In this document: one piece after another, positions 3,833 through 48,638 of the stretch
How the letters are laid out: each line of letters opens with the position of its first letter
Numbering within the stretch: position 1 is the stretch's first letter
NCBI RefSeq assembly: GCF_012913485.1
Contig: NZ_CP051774.1
Location: 5,208,001-5,272,000, forward strand
From: Luteolibacter luteus
GTDB taxonomy: Bacteria > Verrucomicrobiota > Verrucomicrobiia > Verrucomicrobiales > Akkermansiaceae
Direction of reading: 5' to 3'
DNA length: 64,000 bases
Program-made: the position numbers and the translations under genes
The notes under the pieces: generated by a model
The model's database searches: none
Told to the model about the DNA's origin: nothing
The model's input: the letters and a program-made list of their open reading frames with translations, nothing else

Positions 3833-3874
3833 AAACGCTTCGAATTCCCCGAATTTTTCGGGATCGGAGCGTTT
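3833..3874 (-). terminator. Hairpin after the sulfatase gene
   Basis: AAACGCT (3833-3839) pairs with AGCGTTT (3868-3874), and inside it CCCGA pairs with TCGGG. The hairpin overlaps the sulfatase stop codon by two bases and precedes the next minus-strand gene. The T-run is weak, so it may attenuate rather than end transcription. Confidence 0.5.
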
Positions 3875-5276
3875 AGTCGGAACTTCGTCCTGCTTCCTTC
3901 CCCGCGAAAGTGGCGATTTTCCCGGAAAGCTCTGCCTGGATTCCAGCGAGAGCAGGGTCATCGGCGAGATTTCTCATCTCATGTGGATCTGCCGCGGGAT
4001 CCAAGAGCATGGCTCCTCCGGCCGCATACTCGGCGTAGCGCCATTTTTCGGTGCGGATGGAGATTCCTGTGGCCGTCTTTCCGTCCTCGCTCCAGATCGT
4101 GAATGCCGGGTGGTCCCACGGTGCTTGCGGGTCCTTGATGAGCGGACTGAGATCGCGGCCTTCCGTGCCTGGCGCGGCGGGCAGTCCGCAGAGTGCTGCG
4201 AGGGTGGGGAAGAGGTCGATCGATTCCACCACGCGCTGGCATTTGCGTCCCGCGGCTTCACCGGGCACGCGGATGATCAGCGGGACGCGAGTGCCGGCCT
4301 CGAAGAGCGAGCCCGCTTTCGACCATTTGCCTTTTTCGCCGAGTTGATAGCCGTGGTCGCTCCAGAAGACGACGATGGTGTTTCCGGCGAAGCCCAGCCG
4401 ATCGAGTTCGTCCAGCACGCGGCCTGCATTCCAATCGGTCCAGGAGACGCCTGCATGATAGGCGCGGATCATCTCTTTCGCTTCGGTCTCGCTGGCATCG
4501 CGGCCGACGAAGAGATCCGCATTCCTCGGGCGGATGGCGGCCTTCGGAAATCCCTCCGGCACTATCGGGCGCGGCGCGAAATCCGGGGGCAAGGAGATGT
4601 CCTCGGTACGATGAACATCGTAGAAACTCCGTGGTGCCGTCGGCGGGCTGTGCGGCTGGACGAAGCCACAGGCAAGAAAGAAGGGTTTGTCGTGCCGGGC
4701 TCTCAGGAAGCCGATCGCGCGATCGGCGATCGCATTCTCCGGATGTCCGTCACCATTGCCATCGAGCAGGATGCGCCGGTCGCTCTTCTTGTCTTTTGAG
4801 AGTTGGTCGTCGCCCTCAAGCGGCCACTTTGTTTGGGTGGGCCGCGTTTCCACCGCGACATCCGTCATGGCATCTTCAGTCCAGGAGACACCGTCATCAA
4901 TGCCACCGTGGAAGATCTTGCCTGTCTCTGCCGAGATGTAGCCGTGCTCCTTGAACCACTGGGGAAGGGTTGACCACTCGGGGTGCAGCTTGCGGAAGTC
5001 GTCGCGATTTCCCAGCACGCCGGTGGTCTTTGGGTAGCGGCCCGTGAGCATCGAGGCTCGCGAGGGATTGCAGAGCGGAAACTGGCAGTATGCCTTCTCG
5101 AAAAGCACGCCGCTTGACGCAAGCTTGTCGAGATTCGGCGTGCGGCCCAGCGGATTTCCCATGGAGCCGAGTGCTGCCTTCATGTCGTCCGCGATCAGCA
5201 GGAGGACATTGAATTTCTTCTCCTGCGCATGAAGAGGTGCCAAGAGGAGAAGCAGCGCGGCGAGGCGTTTCATCAT
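3873..5276 (-). CDS. Secreted type I sulfatase (iduronate-2-sulfatase-like)
   Basis: A 467-residue arylsulfatase-family hydrolase that would remove sulfate esters, probably from algal or animal polysaccharides, outside the cytoplasm. The chosen start gives a classical signal peptide (MMKRLAALLLLLAPLHAQ); the open frame extends far upstream but that part has no signal. Metal-ligand motif IADDM lies at 28-32 and the formylglycine motif CNPSR at 69-73 (the C-x-P-S-R type needing FGE maturation), followed by TGRYP. Later motifs include SDHGYQLGEKGKWSKA and a D-H pair typical of the family. It resembles iduronate-2-sulfatase in domain order. The SUMF1-like protein in this window lacks the FGE cysteines, so the maturase is probably elsewhere. 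Confidence 0.9.
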   Translation of the reverse strand: MMKRLAALLLLLAPLHAQEKKFNVLLLIADDMKAALGSMGNPLGRTPNLDKLASSGVLFEKAYCQFPLCNPSRASMLTGRYPKTTGVLGNRDDFRKLHPEWSTLPQWFKEHGYISAETGKIFHGGIDDGVSWTEDAMTDVAVETRPTQTKWPLEGDDQLSKDKKSDRRILLDGNGDGHPENAIADRAIGFLRARHDKPFFLACGFVQPHSPPTAPRSFYDVHRTEDISLPPDFAPRPIVPEGFPKAAIRPRNADLFVGRDASETEAKEMIRAYHAGVSWTDWNAGRVLDELDRLGFAGNTIVVFWSDHGYQLGEKGKWSKAGSLFEAGTRVPLIIRVPGEAAGRKCQRVVESIDLFPTLAALCGLPAAPGTEGRDLSPLIKDPQAPWDHPAFTIWSEDGKTATGISIRTEKWRYAEYAAGGAMLLDPAADPHEMRNLADDPALAGIQAELSGKIATFAGKEAGRSSD

Positions 5277-5344
5277 CCCAGCATGGAATGGCTCCCCGCG
5301 TGCCCGCAAGATGCAGCGATGCACCCCGATCGGGTTAGGGCCGG

Positions 5345-5830
5345 CTAGGGCAGCGCTCTCCGTTCGGTGACTTCCAAGCCGCCTTGCCGCTTGTGTTTCA
5401 TCACGAATTCCTCGCGGGTGGCATCTTTCCGGTCCGTCGATCCATACTCGATCGAAACCGTGACCACCCCCGCGTTGTTCGCGATATTCAGAAGCCGGAA
5501 CACCGGCTCCTTCCGCAGGCGCAGGAAGCAGAAGAGTGGCACGTCCGGGTGGTGAGCATTCCACAGCCACTGGGCGGGGAGAAAATCCGGGATGTCTGCC
5601 AGCGCGGAGAAGATGGCCCGCACCCGCTTTTCCCCATGCCTTGCTGCAAGGCGCGATGCCGATTTTTTTGCCAGCAGGCCCTCCCACCATGCGGCGACGG
5701 GATTCTCGTTTGCCTCCACCACTTCCTCGATCAGCGTCCGCGCATGGAAGGCCATGGCGGCGTGAAATTGTTCCCGCGTCAGCAGACCGGCGTCGTAATC
5801 TTCGAAGAGTTGCGGCGGTGTGCGGAGCAT
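5345..5830 (-). CDS. Conserved protein of unknown function
   Basis: A 161-residue soluble protein starting MLRTPPQLFEDY. The N-terminal half is helical and acidic; the C-terminal half holds a W-L-W-N-A-H-H segment (about residues 90-97) and a basic, charged end. The start is the ATG 11 bases after the stop of mrp, so it is probably co-transcribed with mrp on the minus strand. I do not recognise the family. The long reading frame upstream of this ATG overlaps mrp antisense-free coding and is not credible. Confidence 0.6.
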   Translation of the reverse strand: MLRTPPQLFEDYDAGLLTREQFHAAMAFHARTLIEEVVEANENPVAAWWEGLLAKKSASRLAARHGEKRVRAIFSALADIPDFLPAQWLWNAHHPDVPLFCFLRLRKEPVFRLLNIANNAGVVTVSIEYGSTDRKDATREEFVMKHKRQGGLEVTERRALP

Positions 5831-25269: not shown

Positions 25270-26751
25270 TCAGTAGGCCGAAGGTCGCTGCGGCGGAGGG
25301 CGGCGATCGCGGTCATCATCACGATCACGGTCCCGATCGCGGAAGGTGGAAGACGAGGAACTGGAAAAGATCCCGTTTTCCACGGTATTTTCCGGATCGG
25401 CTCCAGCCAGCACGCTCACGGAGTCCGGCTTGTTTCCGGTGTAGATGAATTGGCCCTTCTCGCCGGGACGGTAGAGGATTTCCTGCATCATCACGGCACC
25501 TGCGACCATGTAGCGGACCTGTAGCGCGGTTCCTTCCGGCCAATCGCCACGGATCCAGAAGCCATCGTCGGTTTTCAAGACCGGAGGCACTGCTTGGGGA
25601 ATCGGGCGAGGATCGGGCCGAGGAGCAGGGCGGTTGAGCATCGTGCTGCCGGACATCGCATTGTTGCGGCGGCTGACGGCGCGGAAGATCTTGAAAACGA
25701 TGAAGGCCGGGATGAGGAGGCAGAGCAGGCCGCGTATCGGAGAAGAGGGACGGGACGGCCCTTGCTCAGCATCGATGGGATCGTGGGGAGTTTCCGGGCC
25801 GGGCTGCATCGGTGATGTCGCCTCGTCGCTTGCAGACGGCGTCCCGGATTCGACCGGTGGCAGATCTTGCGATGGCGGGGCAATGACAGGTGCCGGAGCC
25901 TCCACCGAGCAGACGATGCGGAAACCGGTGTCCGCATTCCGGCTGCGCGGATCGGCACGATAGCGAGCGGCACTGCGGGTGTTGCTTGGGCCGCGGTTCC
26001 ATGATCCGCCGCGCAGCACGCGCCGCGGCTTGTCGCTGAGGTTGGAATTGTCCTGGCGCGGGTCGGTCGCCTCTCCAGCGGGATAGGGTCCATACCAATC
26101 GAGGCACCATTCGGAAACATTGCCGCCGATGAAGAGTCCCCATGGGTTCGCCGGCTTCGATCCGACCGTGCGGGTTCCGTTTCCGGCGTTGTCCTTGTGC
26201 CAGGCGCTGCCGGCACCCTCCGGGTGGTGCCATGGGGTGGTAGTGCCAGCCCGGCAGGCGTATTCCCACTGGGCTTCGGTCGGCAGGGTGATTTTCCTCC
26301 CGGTTTTTTTCTCCAGCCACTCGCAGAATTTCTGTGCGTCCGGAAAAGTGAGAAGGCATACCGGTGAATCGGCGGCTTGGGCAAATCCGGGAGTCCGCCA
26401 CGTGAAGTTTTTCCGCTGCTCCAAGGCGCTGCCATTCCAGCCATAACCGCCGCTGGTCCCGGTCTCCGCTTCGCTGCGATAGCCCGTCTCCGCGACGAAG
26501 CGTTCCCATTGGCCGAAGGTTACCGTGCTACGACCGATGTAGTAGTCTTTCGTCAGGATTACCTCGCGTTGGGCTTCATCCGCGCCGCGGCCGGATTCGC
26601 TCGCGGGAGATCCCTGCGTGAAACTGCCGGACTGGATCAGGACGAGATCGAGCTTGGTTCCCTGGCCGAGGTCGAGCTCCAGCGTCGGCTCCGCAGCCCG
26701 CGAGGCATGGGCGAAGAAACAAAGCGCGAAGGCTCCGAGGATTCCTTTCAT
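25270..26751 (-). CDS. SUMF1/FGE-sulfatase-domain membrane protein
   Basis: A 493-residue protein from the ATG at 26751 (the longer frame starts at TTG). Signal peptide 1-20, then an FGE/SUMF1-type C-type-lectin-like domain (residues about 30-285: GSFTQGSPxSE; LPTEAQWEYACRAG; GNVSEWCLDWYG; RVLRGGSW; DTGFRIV). The two FGE cysteines are missing (GGSWNRGPSNTRSAAR), so formylglycine formation is unlikely. A Pro/Ser linker, one transmembrane helix (LLCLLIPAFIVFKIF) and a C-terminal domain follow, ending in Ser runs and Arg-Asp repeats. It precedes the glycosyltransferase, hinting at an envelope role. Confidence 0.8.
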   Translation of the reverse strand: MKGILGAFALCFFAHASRAAEPTLELDLGQGTKLDLVLIQSGSFTQGSPASESGRGADEAQREVILTKDYYIGRSTVTFGQWERFVAETGYRSEAETGTSGGYGWNGSALEQRKNFTWRTPGFAQAADSPVCLLTFPDAQKFCEWLEKKTGRKITLPTEAQWEYACRAGTTTPWHHPEGAGSAWHKDNAGNGTRTVGSKPANPWGLFIGGNVSEWCLDWYGPYPAGEATDPRQDNSNLSDKPRRVLRGGSWNRGPSNTRSAARYRADPRSRNADTGFRIVCSVEAPAPVIAPPSQDLPPVESGTPSASDEATSPMQPGPETPHDPIDAEQGPSRPSSPIRGLLCLLIPAFIVFKIFRAVSRRNNAMSGSTMLNRPAPRPDPRPIPQAVPPVLKTDDGFWIRGDWPEGTALQVRYMVAGAVMMQEILYRPGEKGQFIYTGNKPDSVSVLAGADPENTVENGIFSSSSSSTFRDRDRDRDDDRDRRPPPQRPSAY

Positions 26752-26810
26752 CGCCGCCAAGCTAGCGGCAGGGGAACGCTCCGCAATCCCGGGATAGAGG
26801 CGACGTCGTT

Positions 26811-39715: not shown

Positions 39716-39786
39716 AAACGGTCAATTTTCGGCTGCATAAAGGGGGTGATTTGACAAGGCATGGCCCCCCCAACAGTCTGGCGCGC

Positions 39787-40881
39787 GTGAGCACCATCCA
39801 GAGTACCCCGTTGGAAGCCCTTCATGTCCGTCTTGGCGCCAAGATGGTGCCCTTCGCCGGGTGGAACATGCCGGTGCAGTACACTTCCATCATGGATGAG
39901 CATGCCGCGGTGCGGAAGGCCGTCGGGATTTTCGATATCTCCCACATGGGTCAGTTCATCGTCAGCGGCCCGGGTGCCTTGGCATGGCTGAATCGCGTGC
40001 TTGCGAATAACGTTGCGAAGCTTGCCCAAGGGCAGGGGCAGTATTCTTTCCTGCTGAACGAAAAGGGCGGGGTGATCGATGATCTGATCGTCTACCGCAC
40101 CGGTGACGAGTCGTTCTTCCTGGTGGTGAATGCCTCGATGATCGAGGAGGACTTCTTCTGGATGGCGAAGCATCAGCCCGACGATGTGGAGTTCTCCAAT
40201 GAAAGCGCGCTGTGGGCCGGCATGGCCGTGCAGGGGCCGGAGTCTGCGGCTGCATTCGCGAAGGCTTGTCCGGGCCAAGAGCTGCCGCACCGCAATGGGA
40301 TCTCGCGTTTTGCGATCGAGGGCGGCGAGGCGGTGGTTTGCCGCACCGGTTACACCGGCGAAGATGGTTTCGAGTTTTTCTGCCCCGCGGAGGAAGGAGA
40401 GAAGTGGTTTGAAAAGTTCATCGGGGCAGGTGCGAAGGCTTGCGGGCTCGGTGCTCGCGATAGCCTGCGCCTGGAGATGTGCTATCCGCTCAATGGCAGC
40501 GATCTCTCGCCGGAGCGCACTCCGATTGAAGCCGGCCTCGGCTTCTTCGTGGATCTCGACAAGGGCGACTTTATCGGCCGCGACACGCTGGCCACTCAGA
40601 AGGCGGAAGGACCGGCCCAACGCCTGGTCGCTCTGGAATACACGGACAAGGGGGCACCGCCGCGTGCTCACTACGCGGTGCTGGATGCCTCCGGGCAAGT
40701 GGTCTCCGAGCTTTCCAGCGGCGTGCTTTCCCCGAGCCTCGGCAAGGGCATCGGCATGGCTTACTTGCCTGCCGCGCTTGCGAAGCCGGGCACGGATCTC
40801 TTCGTGGATGTCCGCGGCCGCCAGTTCCCGGCGAAGGTCGTGAAGAAACCGTTTTACAAGCCCGCCACCCAAAAAGCATAA
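39787..40881 (+). CDS. gcvT: Aminomethyltransferase (glycine cleavage T protein)
   Basis: A 364-residue folate-dependent enzyme of glycine cleavage: it passes the aminomethyl group from H-protein to tetrahydrofolate. Start GTG at 39787 gives MSTIQSTPLEALH, matching the family; the longer frame lacks conservation. Motifs: LGAKMVPFAGWNMPVQY (15-31), FDISHMGQF (about 54) and the DSLRLEMCYPL region (about 230), followed by an OB-type C-terminal domain. gcvH follows by 15 bases; gcvP is not adjacent. Confidence 0.95.
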   Translation: MSTIQSTPLEALHVRLGAKMVPFAGWNMPVQYTSIMDEHAAVRKAVGIFDISHMGQFIVSGPGALAWLNRVLANNVAKLAQGQGQYSFLLNEKGGVIDDLIVYRTGDESFFLVVNASMIEEDFFWMAKHQPDDVEFSNESALWAGMAVQGPESAAAFAKACPGQELPHRNGISRFAIEGGEAVVCRTGYTGEDGFEFFCPAEEGEKWFEKFIGAGAKACGLGARDSLRLEMCYPLNGSDLSPERTPIEAGLGFFVDLDKGDFIGRDTLATQKAEGPAQRLVALEYTDKGAPPRAHYAVLDASGQVVSELSSGVLSPSLGKGIGMAYLPAALAKPGTDLFVDVRGRQFPAKVVKKPFYKPATQKA

Positions 40882-40896
40882 GCTTCCTTATACCCG

Positions 40897-41274
40897 ATGA
40901 ACGTACCTCAGAATCTCCGCTACAATTCCTCCCACGAGTGGGTCCTCCTCGAAGGTGATGTCGCCACCATCGGGATTTCAGATCATGCCCAGGAAGAGCT
41001 GACCGACGTTGTGTTCGTCGAGCTGCCGCCGGTGGGCAAGACCGTCGATATCGGTGATCCGACCGCTGTGGTGGAATCCGTGAAAGCTGCGAGTGATATC
41101 TACGCCCCGGTTTCCGGTGAAGTGGTGGAAGTCAACGACGCGGTGGAAGCCGATCCTTCGCTGGTCAACACCGATCCCTACGGCAAGGGCTGGATCTTCA
41201 AACTGAAGGTCAAGGACGCCGCCCAGCTTGACTCGCTGCTCGATGCCGCCGGCTACGAGGCATTGATTGGGTAA
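40897..41274 (+). CDS. gcvH: Glycine cleavage system H protein
   Basis: A 125-residue lipoyl carrier. The lipoylated lysine is in the [13 protein letters not shown] motif (Lys about 63-64), and the N-terminus ([30 protein letters not shown]) matches GcvH throughout. It is in an operon with gcvT and ends with a strong terminator 26 bases after its stop, so gcvP must be transcribed elsewhere or absent nearby. Confidence 0.96.
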
Positions 41275-41433: not shown

Positions 41434-42225
41434 ATGAATTCCCTGCTTCGATATCTCCTCGTTTTTCTCGCGGCGTGCGGATTTCTGTCCGCCCAGACCG
41501 AGCCTCCGGCGTCACTCCAAGCGCTGGCATGGAAAAAGATCTCACAGGATCTTTCGAAGGACCCCTTCTTCCAAGAGGATATCAAGAAGGCTCTCCCGGC
41601 ACTTTCTCCGGAAGGCAAGTCCTCGGTTACCAAGTGCATCAGCCAGATGATCAAAGGGAACGGTGTGGCGGCAACCGGATCGGCTGCCGATGCGATCCTC
41701 GCCAAGGAACTGCGGGGCAAGGCGCGTGTGCTTGTGCCGGACAAGGACCTCGATGCTCTGAATGCCCTTAGCGATGCAGATCTCCTCGCGATCGCCGGCG
41801 GGGTCTTCGGTCAGGAACAGAAGCTTCCGTCGAAGGTGCAAATCGTCCTCGATTCAGATCCTACGATGGGCCTCAACGCGCGTGATCCCGACTCGATCAA
41901 ATTAGGGAAGCAATTCACCCGTTTCCGCATCATGCCCGGTCTCGCCGATCCGGGGATGGTGACCTTTGAGCAGGACAGCGGGACCGGGAAGAATCTTATC
42001 CTGAGGCACTATACCTTCAAGCTGTTCGTCAATTCGCTTCCTGACAACGACCCGCTCTTCAATGCCGATTCCACCTTCAAGATCGTCCGGTTGCCGGGTG
42101 ACAAGGTGAAGTTCCAGTCCAAGAACTATCCTAACAAATACATCTGCGTGGATGAGAAAGGAGGCTTCGTCCTGACGGAGGTGAGCGATGAGGCATCCGC
42201 GACTTTCCGTCTAGTGGGTAAATAA
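41434..42225 (+). CDS. Secreted AbfB-domain-like protein
   Basis: A 263-residue exported protein: signal peptide 1-20 (LLVFLAACGFLSA). Residues about 25-130 are helical; residues about 150-262 resemble an arabinofuranosidase-type AbfB domain (beta-trefoil): RFRIMPGLADPGMVTFEQDS, then LILRHYTFKLFV, then FNADSTFKIV, and a second lobe QSKNYPNKYICVDEKGG. AbfB domains bind arabinose side chains. A catalytic domain is not visible, so it may be a non-catalytic binding protein. The call is by pattern. Confidence 0.7.
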   Translation: MNSLLRYLLVFLAACGFLSAQTEPPASLQALAWKKISQDLSKDPFFQEDIKKALPALSPEGKSSVTKCISQMIKGNGVAATGSAADAILAKELRGKARVLVPDKDLDALNALSDADLLAIAGGVFGQEQKLPSKVQIVLDSDPTMGLNARDPDSIKLGKQFTRFRIMPGLADPGMVTFEQDSGTGKNLILRHYTFKLFVNSLPDNDPLFNADSTFKIVRLPGDKVKFQSKNYPNKYICVDEKGGFVLTEVSDEASATFRLVGK

Positions 42226-42235
42226 GCCCGGTGGA

Positions 42236-45200
42236 TTAGCCAAGGACCGCTTTCATGACCGCCGCGACTTCTGTCGCCGAGTGGTTGCGAAGGAAATCCT
42301 CGTGCACGCCGGGAACCGTATAAACCTCGAAGGGTTGATCCGCCTTCCATCCCAAGGTGGGGTGTCGCGGTAGCCAGCCCTCGTCATCAGCCTGAACAAT
42401 GACGAGGCGCCCGACTTCGGGCAAGCGGGGCACATGGAGATGGAGCGCCTCCCAGTGCTGGGTAGCGCGGGCTTGGGAAGCTTCGTCCAGCAATTCCAGA
42501 TCAAGCACGCTGCGGATATCCGGGACCACATTGCGCACGGAGACAGCGGCACGTTGCTTCATGCGGAGACGACGCAGGGCCGTGGCGGTGTCCCGGGAAA
42601 GCAGGCTCTTCACGCGGGAAGGGAGGCGGGAAAAGATCCGCTTCCAAGTCGCGGGTTCAAGCCACATCGACGAGGATCGCTTGGTATTGGGTGCTGTGGA
42701 TTCCAGCAGGACCAGGAGTTCCACCGTTTCGCCCACCGTGCTGAGTTGCCAAGCGATCTCCGCGGCGAGATTCCCGCCGAAGCAGAAGCCGGCGATGCGA
42801 TAGGGGCCTTTCGGTTGAACGGAGCGAATCTTTTCCACGTGGCTGCGCGCCATCTCGCTGATAAAGCCGAAGGTCCGGGTGCCTTCCGCGACGCCATAAG
42901 AGGTGGCGAGTCCCTCGAGGAGATGGGCTGCCTCGCGATACGGCATCAGGCCCATGCCACCATCCACAAGGGTGTGGATCCAGAAGAGCGGTTTGTTCTT
43001 GGTGCCATGGCTCAGGCGGATCACCCGCGGTTGGGCAAGGTCATTGCCGGCATTGGCTCGGATTTGTTCCGCCATGCCCGCGGGAGTAGGGCGATCGAAG
43101 AGCCAGTCGAGCGGGACGTTGACGCCGATCCGGCGTGATGCTTCCGCGACGAGTCGTGCTGCGAGCAGGGAATGGCCACCGAGAGCGAAGAAATCATCGT
43201 CTGGACGCACGCCGCGACAGTCCAGTACATCGCTCCAGATGTCGGCGAGTTCGATTTCCAGTGGATTGTTGGCCCCGCGGGCAGATGAGATCTCGTTCGC
43301 TGGGAGCTCGCGTGCTGCGAGCGCCTTCCGGTCGATCTTGCCACTCGAAGTCAACGGCATCCGGTCGAGCGCAATCAAAGGTGCCGGTACCATATAGTCC
43401 GGCAGACGTTCCCGCAGGTGAGCGCTCAGTTCCGCGGGATCGAGCGCCGAGGAGATCGGTCGGTACCAAGCAACGAGCTTTTCTCCGGGCGTGGTGAGCA
43501 CCGCCGCCGCTTCCGCCACTCCGAGGTGCGAAAGCAAGGCTGCATCGATCTCGCCAAGCTCCACGCGGAAGCCGCGAATCTTCACCTGTCCGTCCGAGCG
43601 TCCCAAGCATTCCAAGGTGCCATCGGGATTCCAGCGGGCGAGGTCGCCGGTGCGATAGACTTTCGAGTGGGGCCCGGGAAGCAGCGAGAGGCTATCGATG
43701 AAACGTTCCTCCGTGAGCTCCGGCCGCTGCCAATAGCCATCGGCCAAGCCAGACCCTGATATCAGCAGCTCTCCGGGAACTCCCGGAGGAGCGAGCGCGC
43801 CGTCTGCCCCGGCAATGTGGATGCCGGTATTCGCAATCGGATGTCCAATGCTGATGCGATCCGGACGATCGGGCACGCGCCAGATGGTAGACCATACGGT
43901 GGTCTCCGTGGGGCCATACATGTTCCATGTCTCCCGGCCCATCTGAACCAGGCGCTTGGCCAAGGGCAGATCCATCGCCTCGCCACCGCAGAGAATCTTG
44001 AGATCCGGAGAGCCCTGCCATCCGGCGTCCATCAGCATGCGCCAGGTAGCGGGAGTCGCCTGCATCAGGTCCGGCTTGCTCTCTCCCAGCCGGGCTAGCA
44101 GCGCTGCGGGATCGCGTGCGACTTTGCCGGGGACGAGATCCACGGTGCCTCCCGTGACAAGAGGCAGGAAGATCTCCAGCGCCGAGATGTCGAAAGATAC
44201 GGTCGTCACGGCCAGCAAGCGTTGGCCTTCTTGGAACCCTGGTTGCTCGGCCATCGAGAGCAGGAAATTCGCCAATGCACCGTGGGAAACGACAACGCCC
44301 TTCGGCCTTCCGGTGGAGCCAGAGGTGTAGATGATATAGGCCGGATCGCTTGGCTGGGGCAGGGGATTGCGCGGTGCCGACCGGCCTGACGCCATTGAGC
44401 GGTCAAATACGATGCTTTCCGTACCTCGCGGCAGGTGGTTGGCCAGTGCCGGGGAAACCAGCACATGAAGCGGAGCCTGGTCCTCAAGGATCAGGGCGAG
44501 CCGTTCCGGAGGATTGGCGGAGTCGAGAGGCACATAGGCCGCACCCGCTTTCCAGATCGCGAGCAGGGCGATGGGCAAAAAGAGATCCCTCTCCAGCATC
44601 AGCGCCACGCGATCACCGGGACGCACGCCATGAGATTGCAGGGTGGCGGCCAGCGTGGATGATCTCAGGTCGAGGTCCGCGTAATCCATCGACTCTTCCC
44701 CGCAGACGAGCGCGGTTTTCTTCTTCAGCCGCGCCGAAGTTGCCGAAATGAGGGATGGAGTGGTCTTGCGCGGGAACTCGCGGCGCACGGGGCCTTGGCC
44801 CGCATCCACGAGCCGCCGGCGATCGCTTTCCGCGAGGCTATCGATCTCGCGAATCGGAACATCGGGGTCCAGGCAGATCGCATTGAGAGTGGCGAGAAAG
44901 CGGTCCAGCATCGCCTTCGCCGTCCCTTGCTCGAAGAGATCGCTGCGATATTCCACCACCACCTGCTGGCGATCGCTCAGGACGAAGAGCAGCAGGCTAA
45001 GATCAAATTGCACCGCACCGCGATGCGCCAGGTAAGGCTTGCAACTCAGGCCGCCGGCCCAGTGTTCGGCGAGCGGTAACTCCTGATGATCGAACATCAC
45101 CTGCGCCAGCGGCGAGCGGTCGCGCGCACGCTCGGGACGCACCGCATCGATGATCTTTTCAAAAGGCGCATCCTGGGCGGCCTGCATCTCGAAAGATGCC

Positions 45201-48052
45201 TGCCGCACGCGTTCCAGCAGCGAGATGAATGTTTCCTCCGGATCGAGAACCATCCGGAATGGCAAGGTATTCACCAAGGTGCCGATCAGGTCGCCTGCCA
45301 CCGCGTGATTCCGGTTTGCCACAGGCACCGCGATCACTTGGTCGTCCCCGCCTCCATGGCGGCGAAGCAGCAGCATGAAGGCCGCGAGCTGGATCATGAA
45401 GGGCGTCGAGCGCTGCTCCCTCGCCAAGGTGGCGACCCGCTCCGCAAGCTGATGCGGCACGGTTCGTTCCACGGCGCCACCTTTCGAAGAAGGCTTGGCA
45501 GGCCTCGGGAAATCGGCCGCCAATTCCATCACTCCGGGATGACCGCTGAGGCGTTCCTTCCAATAGGCCACGCGGGCATTCGCAGCACCGCCATCGATCC
45601 ACCGGCGGTGCCAGGCCGCATAGTCGAGATAGTCCGGGCCGGCCGGAAAGGGATAGGGTTGCTTGCCCTGGCTGTAGGCCCGGTAGCAAATCGCCAAGTC
45701 TCTCACCAGCACCCGCACGGACCAGCCGTCGGCTACGATGTGATGGGCGCAGAGCGCGAAGACGTGACGCTCCTTCGCCATGGTCAGCACGGTCGCACGG
45801 ACAGGCGGAGCGCTTTCGAGGCGGAAAGGAATCAACGCGAAGGATTGCAGCGCGCGGTCGAGATCTTCCTCCGTGTTCGCCTTGCCCCGTATGAGGGGCG
45901 GCGGAGTGGCAGGATTGATCCAGACCCGCGCCCGGCCGTTCTCCGCCGCGTGGCGGCTTCGCAAGATGGAATGGTGGGCCAGCACCTTCGCATAGGCACG
46001 TTCGAACGCGGGTATGTCCAGCGGGCCGTTCATCTCCAGCGCGCCGAAGACATGGTAGGCCGCACTTTCCGGCTCCAGCTGGTGGAGGAACCACATGCGT
46101 TCCTGCGAATGCGTGAGCAAACCTGAATCCCGCCCTGAGCCCGGAACGATCTCCGGGAGAGGGGCCGCGGACGCTGCCTTGCTTTCCACCGTTGCCGCCA
46201 GATGGGCGAAGGAAGGGGAGGTGAAGAGCTCTCCGTGAGCCAGCTCCACCCCGGTGGCTGCGCGGAGCAGGGCAGAGAGCCGGGTGGCTTCCAGCGAACT
46301 CATTCCGAAGGCGATCAGATCATCATCGGCCCGCACGCCATCGCGGCCGGTTGCTTCGCGCACCGCATCCAGCACGCAATCAAGGATCGGGCCTTCAGGG
46401 AGACGCGGGCTGGCGATGTGGGCGGCCTCGTCGTAGGTCACCGTGAGTCTTCCCGTCGCGAGGGCCTCGCGGGTGCTGCTGCGGCGGATCTTGCCGCTGG
46501 TGGTGCGCGGCAGCGTGCCAGCGCGGACAAAGAGGATGCGATGGATCGAGAGCTCTAACAGATCTGCCACACGCCGCCGGATGGCGGAGCAGAGGATGTG
46601 GAATTGTGGGAAAGAAAGCCGGGCGCATTCCATTGCCAGAACCACGCCCTCGCCATTTCCTGTTTCATCGGCGAAAGCTGCGGAGGCGAGGATCTCCGGG
46701 AAGGCGATGAGGGCGGACTCGATGTCCTCAGGCGCGATGTTGCTGCCACCCAGGATGATGAGGTCCTTGATGCGGCCCACCACGTGGAGCTCTCCATTCT
46801 CGAGATAGCCGCGGTCACCGGTATGAAGTTCTCCGTCCGCGCTGAAGGTCGCTGCATTTGCCTCGGGCCGCTGCCAGTAGCCGGGCGAGACGCTGGGACC
46901 CTTCACGCGGATCTCACCAATCAGTCCCGCGGGCAAGGTGCGTCCCGTTTGGGGATCCGCGATGCGGATGGCCAAGCCATCGAGCGCCGGCCCGCACGAA
47001 ACATGGCGACCGGCCTGTGGATGATTGGAGATCCGCTGCAGGGCGCCCGAGCGGCAGGCGGTCACGGTCAGCGTCGCTTCCGCCAGGCCGTATCCGGGCA
47101 GGAAGGCCTCGGGGCGGAAGCCGTAAGGCGCGAAGCGGCGGGTGAAGCGCTGCAAGGTCTCCACTTGGATACGCTCGGCTCCGCAGGGTGCGGCTTTCCA
47201 GCAGGAGAGGTCGAGCCCTTGCAGCTCTTCATCGCGGATGGCCCGGAGACAAAGCTCAAAGGCAAAATTCGGACCGCCGCTGAACTCGGCGCGGTAGCGG
47301 CTGATCGCACGCAACCAGCGGACCGGACGCTGGATGAAATGATCCGGAGAAAAGAAGGTGAGCGGGAAGCCTGCCTCGATGCTGAAGAGAAGCTTCAGCA
47401 CCAGTCCCATGTCGTGATAGGGCGGGAGCCAGCTCAGGCCGCTCTGGATGTTTAGCCCGTGGATGTTTGTCACCAGTGCGCTGAGATGGTGGCGCAGGTT
47501 CCGGTGGTGGATCATCACTCCTTTCGGGTCCGCCGTGGAGCCGGAGGTGTATTGGAGCAGGCAGGGATGACTGCCTTCTTTGGCCGGTCCTTCGAAGGGT
47601 GTGCCCTTTGTCGCCAACTCCCCGGGGTGCAGGACCTTGACGTCCGGCAAGGGGATGCGCGGCCTCTCGCCGATCGCAAGTGTGGCACCCGAATCGCGAA
47701 GGATCGCCTCGAGCCGCTGCCGGTGACGATTTCCCCTTGGCGGATAAGCGGGCACCGCGATCGCTCCGGCATACCAGCACGCGAAGAGTCCGGAGATGAA
47801 ACCGAGGCCCGGCTGCTCCATCAGCAAGACCGGCTTTCCGCTTGCCCCCTCGCGGACCAAGCCGCCAGCGATTGCCCGGGCTTCGCGGACCAATTGCCCC
47901 ATGCTGAGCAGCTTCTCGTTCTCCTCGGCATCCGGTAGAAATCGATAGGCCAGTTGATCGGGATCCTGCTCCGCCCGGAGATCCAGCACCGATGGCAAAG
48001 CGCACCCCGCGGGTATCGCGAGGTGTTCGATGGGAGCTGCGGAAGGGGACAT
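42236..48052 (-). CDS. FAAL-initiated single-module NRPS (predicted N-acylglycine synthetase)
   Basis: A 1938-residue multidomain enzyme. Order: FAAL domain 20-545 (LLQYTSGSTADPKGV at 165-179; WLPPYHDMGL; YGLAEATL); carrier with phosphopantetheine Ser586 (GMSSLEA); condensation domain 645-1070 with intact HHIVADG (770-776); adenylation domain 1095-1580; second carrier, Ser1628 (LGGHSLL); thioesterase 1687-1935. The A-domain specificity residues read D1288 I1289 L1292 Q1331 L1354 G1356 M1378 V1386 W1387 K1572, which matches the known DILQ-type glycine code. The TE nucleophile position in GFCFGG is Cys1757 with His1917. Simplest product: a fatty acid joined to glycine. No other biosynthetic genes or PPTase are adjacent. 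Codons and GC resemble neighbours by eye. Confidence 0.92.
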   Translation of the reverse strand: MSPSAAPIEHLAIPAGCALPSVLDLRAEQDPDQLAYRFLPDAEENEKLLSMGQLVREARAIAGGLVREGASGKPVLLMEQPGLGFISGLFACWYAGAIAVPAYPPRGNRHRQRLEAILRDSGATLAIGERPRIPLPDVKVLHPGELATKGTPFEGPAKEGSHPCLLQYTSGSTADPKGVMIHHRNLRHHLSALVTNIHGLNIQSGLSWLPPYHDMGLVLKLLFSIEAGFPLTFFSPDHFIQRPVRWLRAISRYRAEFSGGPNFAFELCLRAIRDEELQGLDLSCWKAAPCGAERIQVETLQRFTRRFAPYGFRPEAFLPGYGLAEATLTVTACRSGALQRISNHPQAGRHVSCGPALDGLAIRIADPQTGRTLPAGLIGEIRVKGPSVSPGYWQRPEANAATFSADGELHTGDRGYLENGELHVVGRIKDLIILGGSNIAPEDIESALIAFPEILASAAFADETGNGEGVVLAMECARLSFPQFHILCSAIRRRVADLLELSIHRILFVRAGTLPRTTSGKIRRSSTREALATGRLTVTYDEAAHIASPRLPEGPILDCVLDAVREATGRDGVRADDDLIAFGMSSLEATRLSALLRAATGVELAHGELFTSPSFAHLAATVESKAASAAPLPEIVPGSGRDSGLLTHSQERMWFLHQLEPESAAYHVFGALEMNGPLDIPAFERAYAKVLAHHSILRSRHAAENGRARVWINPATPPPLIRGKANTEEDLDRALQSFALIPFRLESAPPVRATVLTMAKERHVFALCAHHIVADGWSVRVLVRDLAICYRAYSQGKQPYPFPAGPDYLDYAAWHRRWIDGGAANARVAYWKERLSGHPGVMELAADFPRPAKPSSKGGAVERTVPHQLAERVATLAREQRSTPFMIQLAAFMLLLRRHGGGDDQVIAVPVANRNHAVAGDLIGTLVNTLPFRMVLDPEETFISLLERVRQASFEMQAAQDAPFEKIIDAVRPERARDRSPLAQVMFDHQELPLAEHWAGGLSCKPYLAHRGAVQFDLSLLLFVLSDRQQVVVEYRSDLFEQGTAKAMLDRFLATLNAICLDPDVPIREIDSLAESDRRRLVDAGQGPVRREFPRKTTPSLISATSARLKKKTALVCGEESMDYADLDLRSSTLAATLQSHGVRPGDRVALMLERDLFLPIALLAIWKAGAAYVPLDSANPPERLALILEDQAPLHVLVSPALANHLPRGTESIVFDRSMASGRSAPRNPLPQPSDPAYIIYTSGSTGRPKGVVVSHGALANFLLSMAEQPGFQEGQRLLAVTTVSFDISALEIFLPLVTGGTVDLVPGKVARDPAALLARLGESKPDLMQATPATWRMLMDAGWQGSPDLKILCGGEAMDLPLAKRLVQMGRETWNMYGPTETTVWSTIWRVPDRPDRISIGHPIANTGIHIAGADGALAPPGVPGELLISGSGLADGYWQRPELTEERFIDSLSLLPGPHSKVYRTGDLARWNPDGTLECLGRSDGQVKIRGFRVELGEIDAALLSHLGVAEAAAVLTTPGEKLVAWYRPISSALDPAELSAHLRERLPDYMVPAPLIALDRMPLTSSGKIDRKALAARELPANEISSARGANNPLEIELADIWSDVLDCRGVRPDDDFFALGGHSLLAARLVAEASRRIGVNVPLDWLFDRPTPAGMAEQIRANAGNDLAQPRVIRLSHGTKNKPLFWIHTLVDGGMGLMPYREAAHLLEGLATSYGVAEGTRTFGFISEMARSHVEKIRSVQPKGPYRIAGFCFGGNLAAEIAWQLSTVGETVELLVLLESTAPNTKRSSSMWLEPATWKRIFSRLPSRVKSLLSRDTATALRRLRMKQRAAVSVRNVVPDIRSVLDLELLDEASQARATQHWEALHLHVPRLPEVGRLVIVQADDEGWLPRHPTLGWKADQPFEVYTVPGVHEDFLRNHSATEVAAVMKAVLG

Positions 48053-48609: not shown

Positions 48610-48638
48610 TTGACGGGTTGTTATCAAACGCGTATTTT
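48610..48638 (+). promoter_or_regulatory. Sigma70-type promoter for the DUF1549/DUF1501 pair
   Basis: TTGACG (48610-48615), a 17-base spacer and TATTTT (48633-48638) lie so that transcription would begin about 10 bases before the ATG at 48655. No Shine-Dalgarno is visible, so the mRNA may be nearly leaderless. Confidence 0.55.

Follow-up and report, generated by a model that had tools for sequence, protein, structure and literature searches.

The closest solved counterpart of the enzyme described here is AB3403 (A1S_0115) of Acinetobacter. It is encoded in the operon A1S_0112-A1S_0119 which comprises, as does our gene, a fatty acyl-AMP ligase (FAAL), a carrier protein and a condensation-adenylation-carrier-thioesterase unit (C-A-PCP-TE) with a glycine pocket and a cysteine nucleophile in the TE. 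AB3403 was crystallized with glycine and AMP and, out of 20 amino acids assayed, prefers glycine, as summarized in PMC5376624 (citing Drake 2016). In the TE of AB3403, the cysteine is paired with a triad aspartate located at the first of two acid positions, termed position I and position II (PMC11298585). The operon is linked to the compound acinetin 505, which was missing when the ACP gene was deleted. This compound was interpreted as a hydroxylated C15 chain and a glycine-containing part, connected by a link which is neither of the N- nor of the O-type, plus a Cys-Gly attached via sulfur; the same publication calls the AB3403 biosynthetic pathway not yet understood (PMC5376624).

Two further NRPS TEs with a cysteine nucleophile, ObiF1 and SulM, have been characterized structurally. 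Both carry an aspartate at position II and, as described in the source, both close small rings (PMC11298585), a β-lactone or a β-lactam, whose formation requires a β-substituent. Replacing the cysteine of the ObiF1 TE by serine led to dominant hydrolysis (PMC6668435). In addition, a gut pathway to fatty acid amides, OaaA-OaaACP-OaaC, likewise combines an acyl-activating enzyme, an ACP and a condensation domain. Unlike the protein analyzed below, these are described as three free-standing proteins with a free amine as the acceptor and an altered condensation motif (PMC13142362).

Here, we analyze a gene of Luteolibacter luteus (phylum Verrucomicrobiota), whose genome is a single contig of 6.41 Mb. 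The gene lies in a stretch of 64,000 nucleotides, referred to as the window, to which all coordinates below refer unless another locus is named. Judged from its sequence, it probably encodes a stand-alone single-module lipo-glycine synthetase which makes and releases an N-acylglycyl chain; free N-acylglycine as the final product is not implied. The complete open reading frame (42236-48052, minus strand, ATG start) encodes a protein of 1938 residues. Pfam reports two AMP-binding and two PP-binding matches, Condensation (645-1081), AMP-binding_C (1501-1572) and Thioesterase (1723-1796), all of them exceeding the curated cut-offs, and profiles built in this analysis confirm the domain order FAAL-CP-C-A-CP-TE. 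Both carrier serines are intact, as is the condensation motif. The architecture given in an earlier note on this DNA, a single 1938-residue protein with a FAAL, two carriers, one intact condensation domain, one adenylation domain and a TE, is thus borne out by reading frame, Pfam matches and motifs.

By similarity, the first AMP-binding domain (residues ~19-538; 46439-47998, minus strand) is assigned as a FAAL. At E ≤ 1e-50, 14 solved sequences are similar to the first 545 residues of the protein. Half of them bear the name FAAL, fatty acyl-adenylate ligase or FadD23/28/32, while the remaining seven carry other depositor names and we take them to be FAALs as well. Among the NCBIfam models, those for FAALs top the list after one NRPS/PKS model, with no model reaching its own cut-off. 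The first carrier domain follows at residues ~560-630 (46163-46375, minus strand), as placed by Pfam, motif alignment and custom profiles; the serine of its motif FGMSSLEA is kept in all 11 aligned family members besides our protein. Pfam and motif alignment place the second carrier domain, with the motif LGGHSLLA, at residues 1602-1663 (43064-43249, minus strand). Both carriers require a phosphopantetheinyl transferase (PPTase) from elsewhere in the genome, where two ACPS-family matches are found, one of them an Sfp-like PPTase of 226 residues near 2.145 Mb.

The condensation domain spans residues 645-1081 (44810-46120, minus strand) and reads HHIVADG at 770-776, a motif of the HHxxxDG type. 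We placed it in a tree of 212 condensation domains, 86 of which follow a FAAL while 126 stand later in their assembly lines. Our family falls inside a clade of 138 domains (41 FAAL-following, 97 later) and outside a group of 38 which are all FAAL-following. We count this placement against the synthetase reading given above, as the domain may not be a starter condensation domain of the classical type.

The adenylation domain (residues 1106-1580; 43313-44737, minus strand) very likely activates glycine, as its pocket suggests. From D1288 to K1572 the ten pocket residues read DILQLGMVWK, the same code as in the earlier note; we placed these positions by their motif contexts, and the alignment with AB3403 agrees. 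Residues 1285-1400 find their best solved match in AB3403 itself. The copy of this protein in Acinetobacter baumannii has the pocket DILQLGVVWK and shares nine of ten pocket residues with ours, the two adenylation domains being 44% identical over 469 positions. A closely similar code, DILQLGMIWK, is common to four glycine-activating domains in a published survey (PMC12283262). Together with the glycine found in the AB3403 crystal, the shared pocket lends good support to the glycine specificity proposed earlier; glycine use by exactly this enzyme is inferred.

Within the family, the pocket reads DILQLG(L/M)(V/I)WK in ten of the 11 readable members (ours included) and DILQFGLVWK in one; a twelfth member, whose contig ends inside the pocket, was left out of the count. 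Among the matches listed, seven of 75 first adenylation domains following a FAAL, ours included, have the identical code. The other six loci belong to one Planctomycetota and five Corallococcus. Corallococcus FAAL-first NRPSs (e.g. L052, L054, L055) share the order FAAL-CP-C-A and the code DILQLGMVWK with our protein but, in contrast to it, run on with further modules in the same polypeptide.

On this basis, synthesis would proceed as follows. The FAAL would activate a fatty acid as acyl-AMP and load it onto the first carrier, while the adenylation domain would activate glycine and load the second carrier. The condensation domain would then couple both to give an N-acylglycyl-S-carrier. Finally, the TE would take the acyl-glycyl chain onto Cys1757 and release the product. 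Each product presumably requires one round, and a single acyl-glycyl chain is the likely outcome. The earlier note had proposed the same sequence of loading, one condensation and release; glycine and the single condensation domain speak for it, whereas free N-acylglycine is only one of the possible forms of release.

The gene thus resembles a fused, minimal version of the split AB3403 system, for which it would provide a one-protein counterpart outside Acinetobacter. AB3403 offers both the closest solved pocket and the closest solved TE. The two systems also differ in several respects. In the Acinetobacter operon the FAAL and the ACP are separate proteins and are accompanied by an acyl-CoA dehydrogenase, an RND pump and other genes (PMC5376624); none of these lies beside our gene, in which all domains are fused. 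Sequence identity amounts to 32% for the FAALs and 27% for the TEs, and BLAST finds no match between the carriers. In the 3.66-Mb Acinetobacter baumannii record used here, which is labelled a plasmid, the NRPS of the AB3403 type occupies two reading frames (L144:5890-9846).

Layouts of this kind were compared in the 80 loci that best match our protein, a sample whose architecture counts lean towards its own layout. A single reading frame with FAAL-CP-C-A-CP-TE is found in six of them: L040, L042 and L044, which belong to our family, and L050, L116 and L051. Two of the latter (L050 and L116) come from Planctomycetes and have a code unlike that of glycine. The third, L051, is a Legionella MAG with the glycine-like code DILQIGVVWK and an ordinary serine TE. 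The one-protein layout is therefore uncommon in this biased sample, yet not unique. The literature matches listed contain no publication on a single-protein FAAL-C-A(Gly)-CP-TE. The earlier note had called a complete lipo-glycine pathway in one gene without partner enzymes unusual. In line with the absence of partners, no conserved tailoring neighbor accompanies the gene in the stretches compared below. However, the rarity was overstated, given the same layout in two Planctomycetes loci and the Legionella MAG, and the split Acinetobacter system described in PMC5376624.

The TE domain (residues ~1690-1938; 42239-42985, minus strand), delimited by Pfam, the structure model and sequence and fold matches, shows a feature which is absent from the earlier note: in the nucleophile motif GFCFGG, Cys1757 (codon 42782-42784) stands where serine is usual. 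TE alignments place Glu1784 (codon 42701-42703) at acid position I, and alignments and model together place Asp1890 (codon 42383-42385) at position II and His1917 (codon 42302-42304) as the presumed catalytic histidine; all four codons are on the minus strand. These residues are invariant in nine aligned TEs (ours included). A tenth, L016, which lies in another frame in its MAG and was therefore analyzed on its own, agrees. In L021, the gene is cut off by the contig end; its remainder lies on a different contig of that genome (G005) and supplied the eleventh TE (L147, G005:C320:1-1790). The cysteine, glutamate and histidine are kept there, but position 1890 is a glycine with an aspartate one residue to either side. 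In total, the family shows cysteine as the nucleophile in 11/11 TEs, glutamate at position I in 11/11 and aspartate at position II in 10/11.

A structure model of the TE (eight sequences; mean pLDDT 78.9, pTM 0.80) is consistent with these assignments. Cys1757 is modeled directly after a strand and Glu1784 directly after the next one, while Asp1890 lies at the end of the last-but-one strand and His1917 after the last. In the nomenclature of PMC11298585, Cys1757 corresponds to the nucleophile elbow, Glu1784 to acid position I, Asp1890 to acid position II and His1917 to the histidine. AB3403 is the first Foldseek match. The 50 Foldseek matches listed include neither ObiF1 nor SulM, and ObiF1 (6n8e) is likewise missing from the 35 solved sequence matches at E ≤ 1. 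Beyond the shared cysteine and the position-II aspartate of ten family TEs, the two ring-forming enzymes differ from our family in detail: ObiF1 is described with glycine at position I (PMC6668435), where our family has glutamate, and the Gln-Cys-Asn motif reported for SulM (PMC11298585) is absent from our TE which reads Phe-Cys-Phe.

Comparison with other TEs sets the family apart. Position I is an aspartate in all 21 non-family TEs compared. Among 31 TEs (before G005 was added), 13 have cysteine and 18 serine as nucleophile. With G005 included, aspartate at position II is found in 12 of 14 cysteine TEs, the exceptions being L077 and G005, and in none of the 18 serine TEs. Three of these serine TEs have a glutamate at position II, and two others an aspartate one column before. 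Few independent cases stand behind this correlation, since 11 of the 14 cysteine TEs form one family and some serine TEs are near-duplicates. L077, a more distant Verrucomicrobiia MAG, has the order FAAL-CP-C-A with the code DILQLGLIW and a cysteine TE with aspartate at position I and none at position II.

The Acinetobacter copy has an aspartate at both positions, whereas our TE has a glutamate at position I. As the solved triad uses the aspartate at position I (PMC11298585), an aspartate at position II is by itself no proof that the catalytic acid has moved. Glu1784 may therefore be the catalytic acid, and Asp1890 need not be catalytic.

This unusual active site means that the released product may differ from a plain fatty-acyl-glycine. 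Of the release modes considered, plain hydrolysis is our first, though tentative, choice: the TE would admit water and yield free N-acylglycine, as the earlier note proposed. This fits a minimal module with one adenylation domain and no conserved tailoring neighbor in the compared stretches, and glycine offers no side chain to cyclize on. Against it stands the cysteine, which is kept throughout the family; since the ObiF1 enzyme turned towards hydrolysis upon its replacement by serine, cysteine is not the obvious choice for a hydrolytic TE (PMC6668435). A further objection comes from the rest of the genome, which encodes an N-acyltransferase (PF13444, 311 residues; L146:1033-1968, minus strand) near an acyltransferase (PF01553, 269 residues; L146:2409-3218, minus strand). 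Pairs of this type make glycine or ornithine lipids elsewhere. If this pair did the same, plain N-acylglycine would hardly call for an NRPS, and the PF13444 enzyme near PF01553 may offer this organism a simpler way to lipo-amino acids, which also weighs against the synthetase reading as a whole.

The cysteine also makes release by an internal or other nucleophile, instead of water, a serious option. By analogy, it fits such release at least as well as hydrolysis. The acyl-cysteine enzyme would then be attacked by a nucleophile within the chain or by an added amine: a 3-hydroxyl group would give a lactone, an active methylene a tetramate and a second acyl-glycyl chain a dimer. The reaction of ObiF1 and SulM itself is impossible here, because glycine has no β-substituent; for the same reason, the attacking group would have to be supplied by the acyl chain, a second chain or a free amine. 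A Dieckmann release of the pyreudione type was weighed as well; the native amino acid of pyreudione is proline. Cysteine combined with aspartate at position II is the arrangement of the two ring-forming enzymes (PMC11298585), and the correlation between both residues in the compared TEs points in the same direction. The acinetin 505 structure, with its hydroxylated C15 chain and a glycine part that are not ordinarily joined (PMC5376624), hints, without proving it, that lipids of the AB3403 type may leave the enzyme as something reactive. This linkage may equally be explained by the acyl-CoA dehydrogenase and other operon proteins which are not found beside our gene.

Several observations weigh against non-hydrolytic release, which we regard as possible and hold with some reserve. 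The correlation reflects few lineages, and some serine TEs come close to the same pattern, as noted above. The fold and sequence matches listed favor AB3403 and do not include the ring-forming enzymes, the TE is only 27% identical to the Acinetobacter copy, and the sequence reveals no candidate nucleophile. The G005 TE with its glycine at position II and the AB3403 triad, which uses position I although both aspartates are present, place hydrolysis slightly above non-hydrolytic release.

A more specific version of non-hydrolytic release appears unlikely. It posits a one-gene synthetase in which the catalytic acid has moved to position II and position I has become a glutamate, with release by ring closure, dimerization or amine capture. 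We rate it low because the G005 TE does without an aspartate at position II while the AB3403 relative has this aspartate but uses position I. If true, an unknown class of glycine-derived lipid would be made from a single gene. As a test case of how an NRPS TE selects water or another nucleophile for release, the probable lipo-glycine synthetase is very small yet complete: it comprises a single gene, a single amino acid that lacks a side chain, and a cysteine TE with a clade-specific glutamate at position I.

The gene is found in 11 of the 18 genomes of the genus, its own included (E ≤ 1e-180), the ten others being 51-75% identical, a recurrence which argues against a chance reading frame. Among 39 other relatives, the matches listed contain it in G029 alone, where 1651 residues match with ~52% identity. 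This version has no TE, and a PPTase gene begins within the end of its reading frame, overlapping the stop (L128:8132-8800, minus strand). It is neighbored by a C-A-CP-TE protein and a 2889-residue KS-AT-CP-aminotransferase-C-A-methyltransferase protein. As the TE-less gene lies beside another NRPS cluster, G029 may pass its acyl-glycyl chain on to a further enzyme. The Luteolibacter luteus genome has a second NRPS/PKS cluster of the same kind at 0.664-0.682 Mb (L145, G000:C1:665500-683000; L131), which comprises an A-CP protein, a 2982-residue KS-AT-aminotransferase-C-A-methyltransferase protein and a C-A-CP-TE protein and adjoins polysaccharide export, Wzz-like and sugar transferase genes.

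That our enzyme would likewise hand its acyl-glycine to this second cluster, its TE only editing, seems quite improbable: the G029 arrangement and the Corallococcus FAAL-C-A first modules, which start longer NRPSs with the identical code, speak for such a starter role, but 4.6 Mb of the contig separate the two loci (1.8 Mb in the opposite direction if it is circular) and, among the matches listed, G001, G014 and G016 have the FAAL-NRPS without the cluster while G004, G011 and G012 show the converse.

A search with the TE over 387 genomes of the phylum returned matches in seven genomes at E ≤ 1e-15, the four strong ones all in the genus of the window. Family members with a name comprise Haloferula luteola as well as MAGs; one record title names a pond, none names the gut, and the others give no source. 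This distribution lends no support to the connection with lipid signals of gut bacteria drawn in the earlier note.

Regarding its surroundings, the gene lies between a convergent AbfB-domain gene, which ends at 42225, and a divergent gene starting at 48610, and is thus probably its own transcription unit. Its nearest neighbors are this AbfB-domain gene, gcvH and gcvT on one side and the divergent DUF1549/DUF1553 gene, followed by DUF1501, on the other. We compared 12 stretches (the window and 11 relatives), covering ~6-7 kb per side in most cases and less at contig ends. The only genes common to more than four of them are DUF1549/DUF1553 (7/12) and DUF1501 (6/12), apart from overlapping frames, and the FAAL-NRPS is accompanied by neither a conserved tailoring enzyme nor a conserved transporter in these stretches. 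The upstream regions of the window and five relatives aligned too poorly for motif reading.

The genes gcvT and gcvH (39751-41274, plus strand) are close downstream of the FAAL-NRPS gene. A link to glycine supply was considered and rejected: only one of the 11 relative stretches (G015) has both genes, ~6 kb away and on the other side, and for this reason we treat the adjacency as chance. The window further contains a sulfatase (3873-5690) and a protein of the FGE-sulfatase (sulfatase-modifying factor) type (25270-26760), both on the minus strand.
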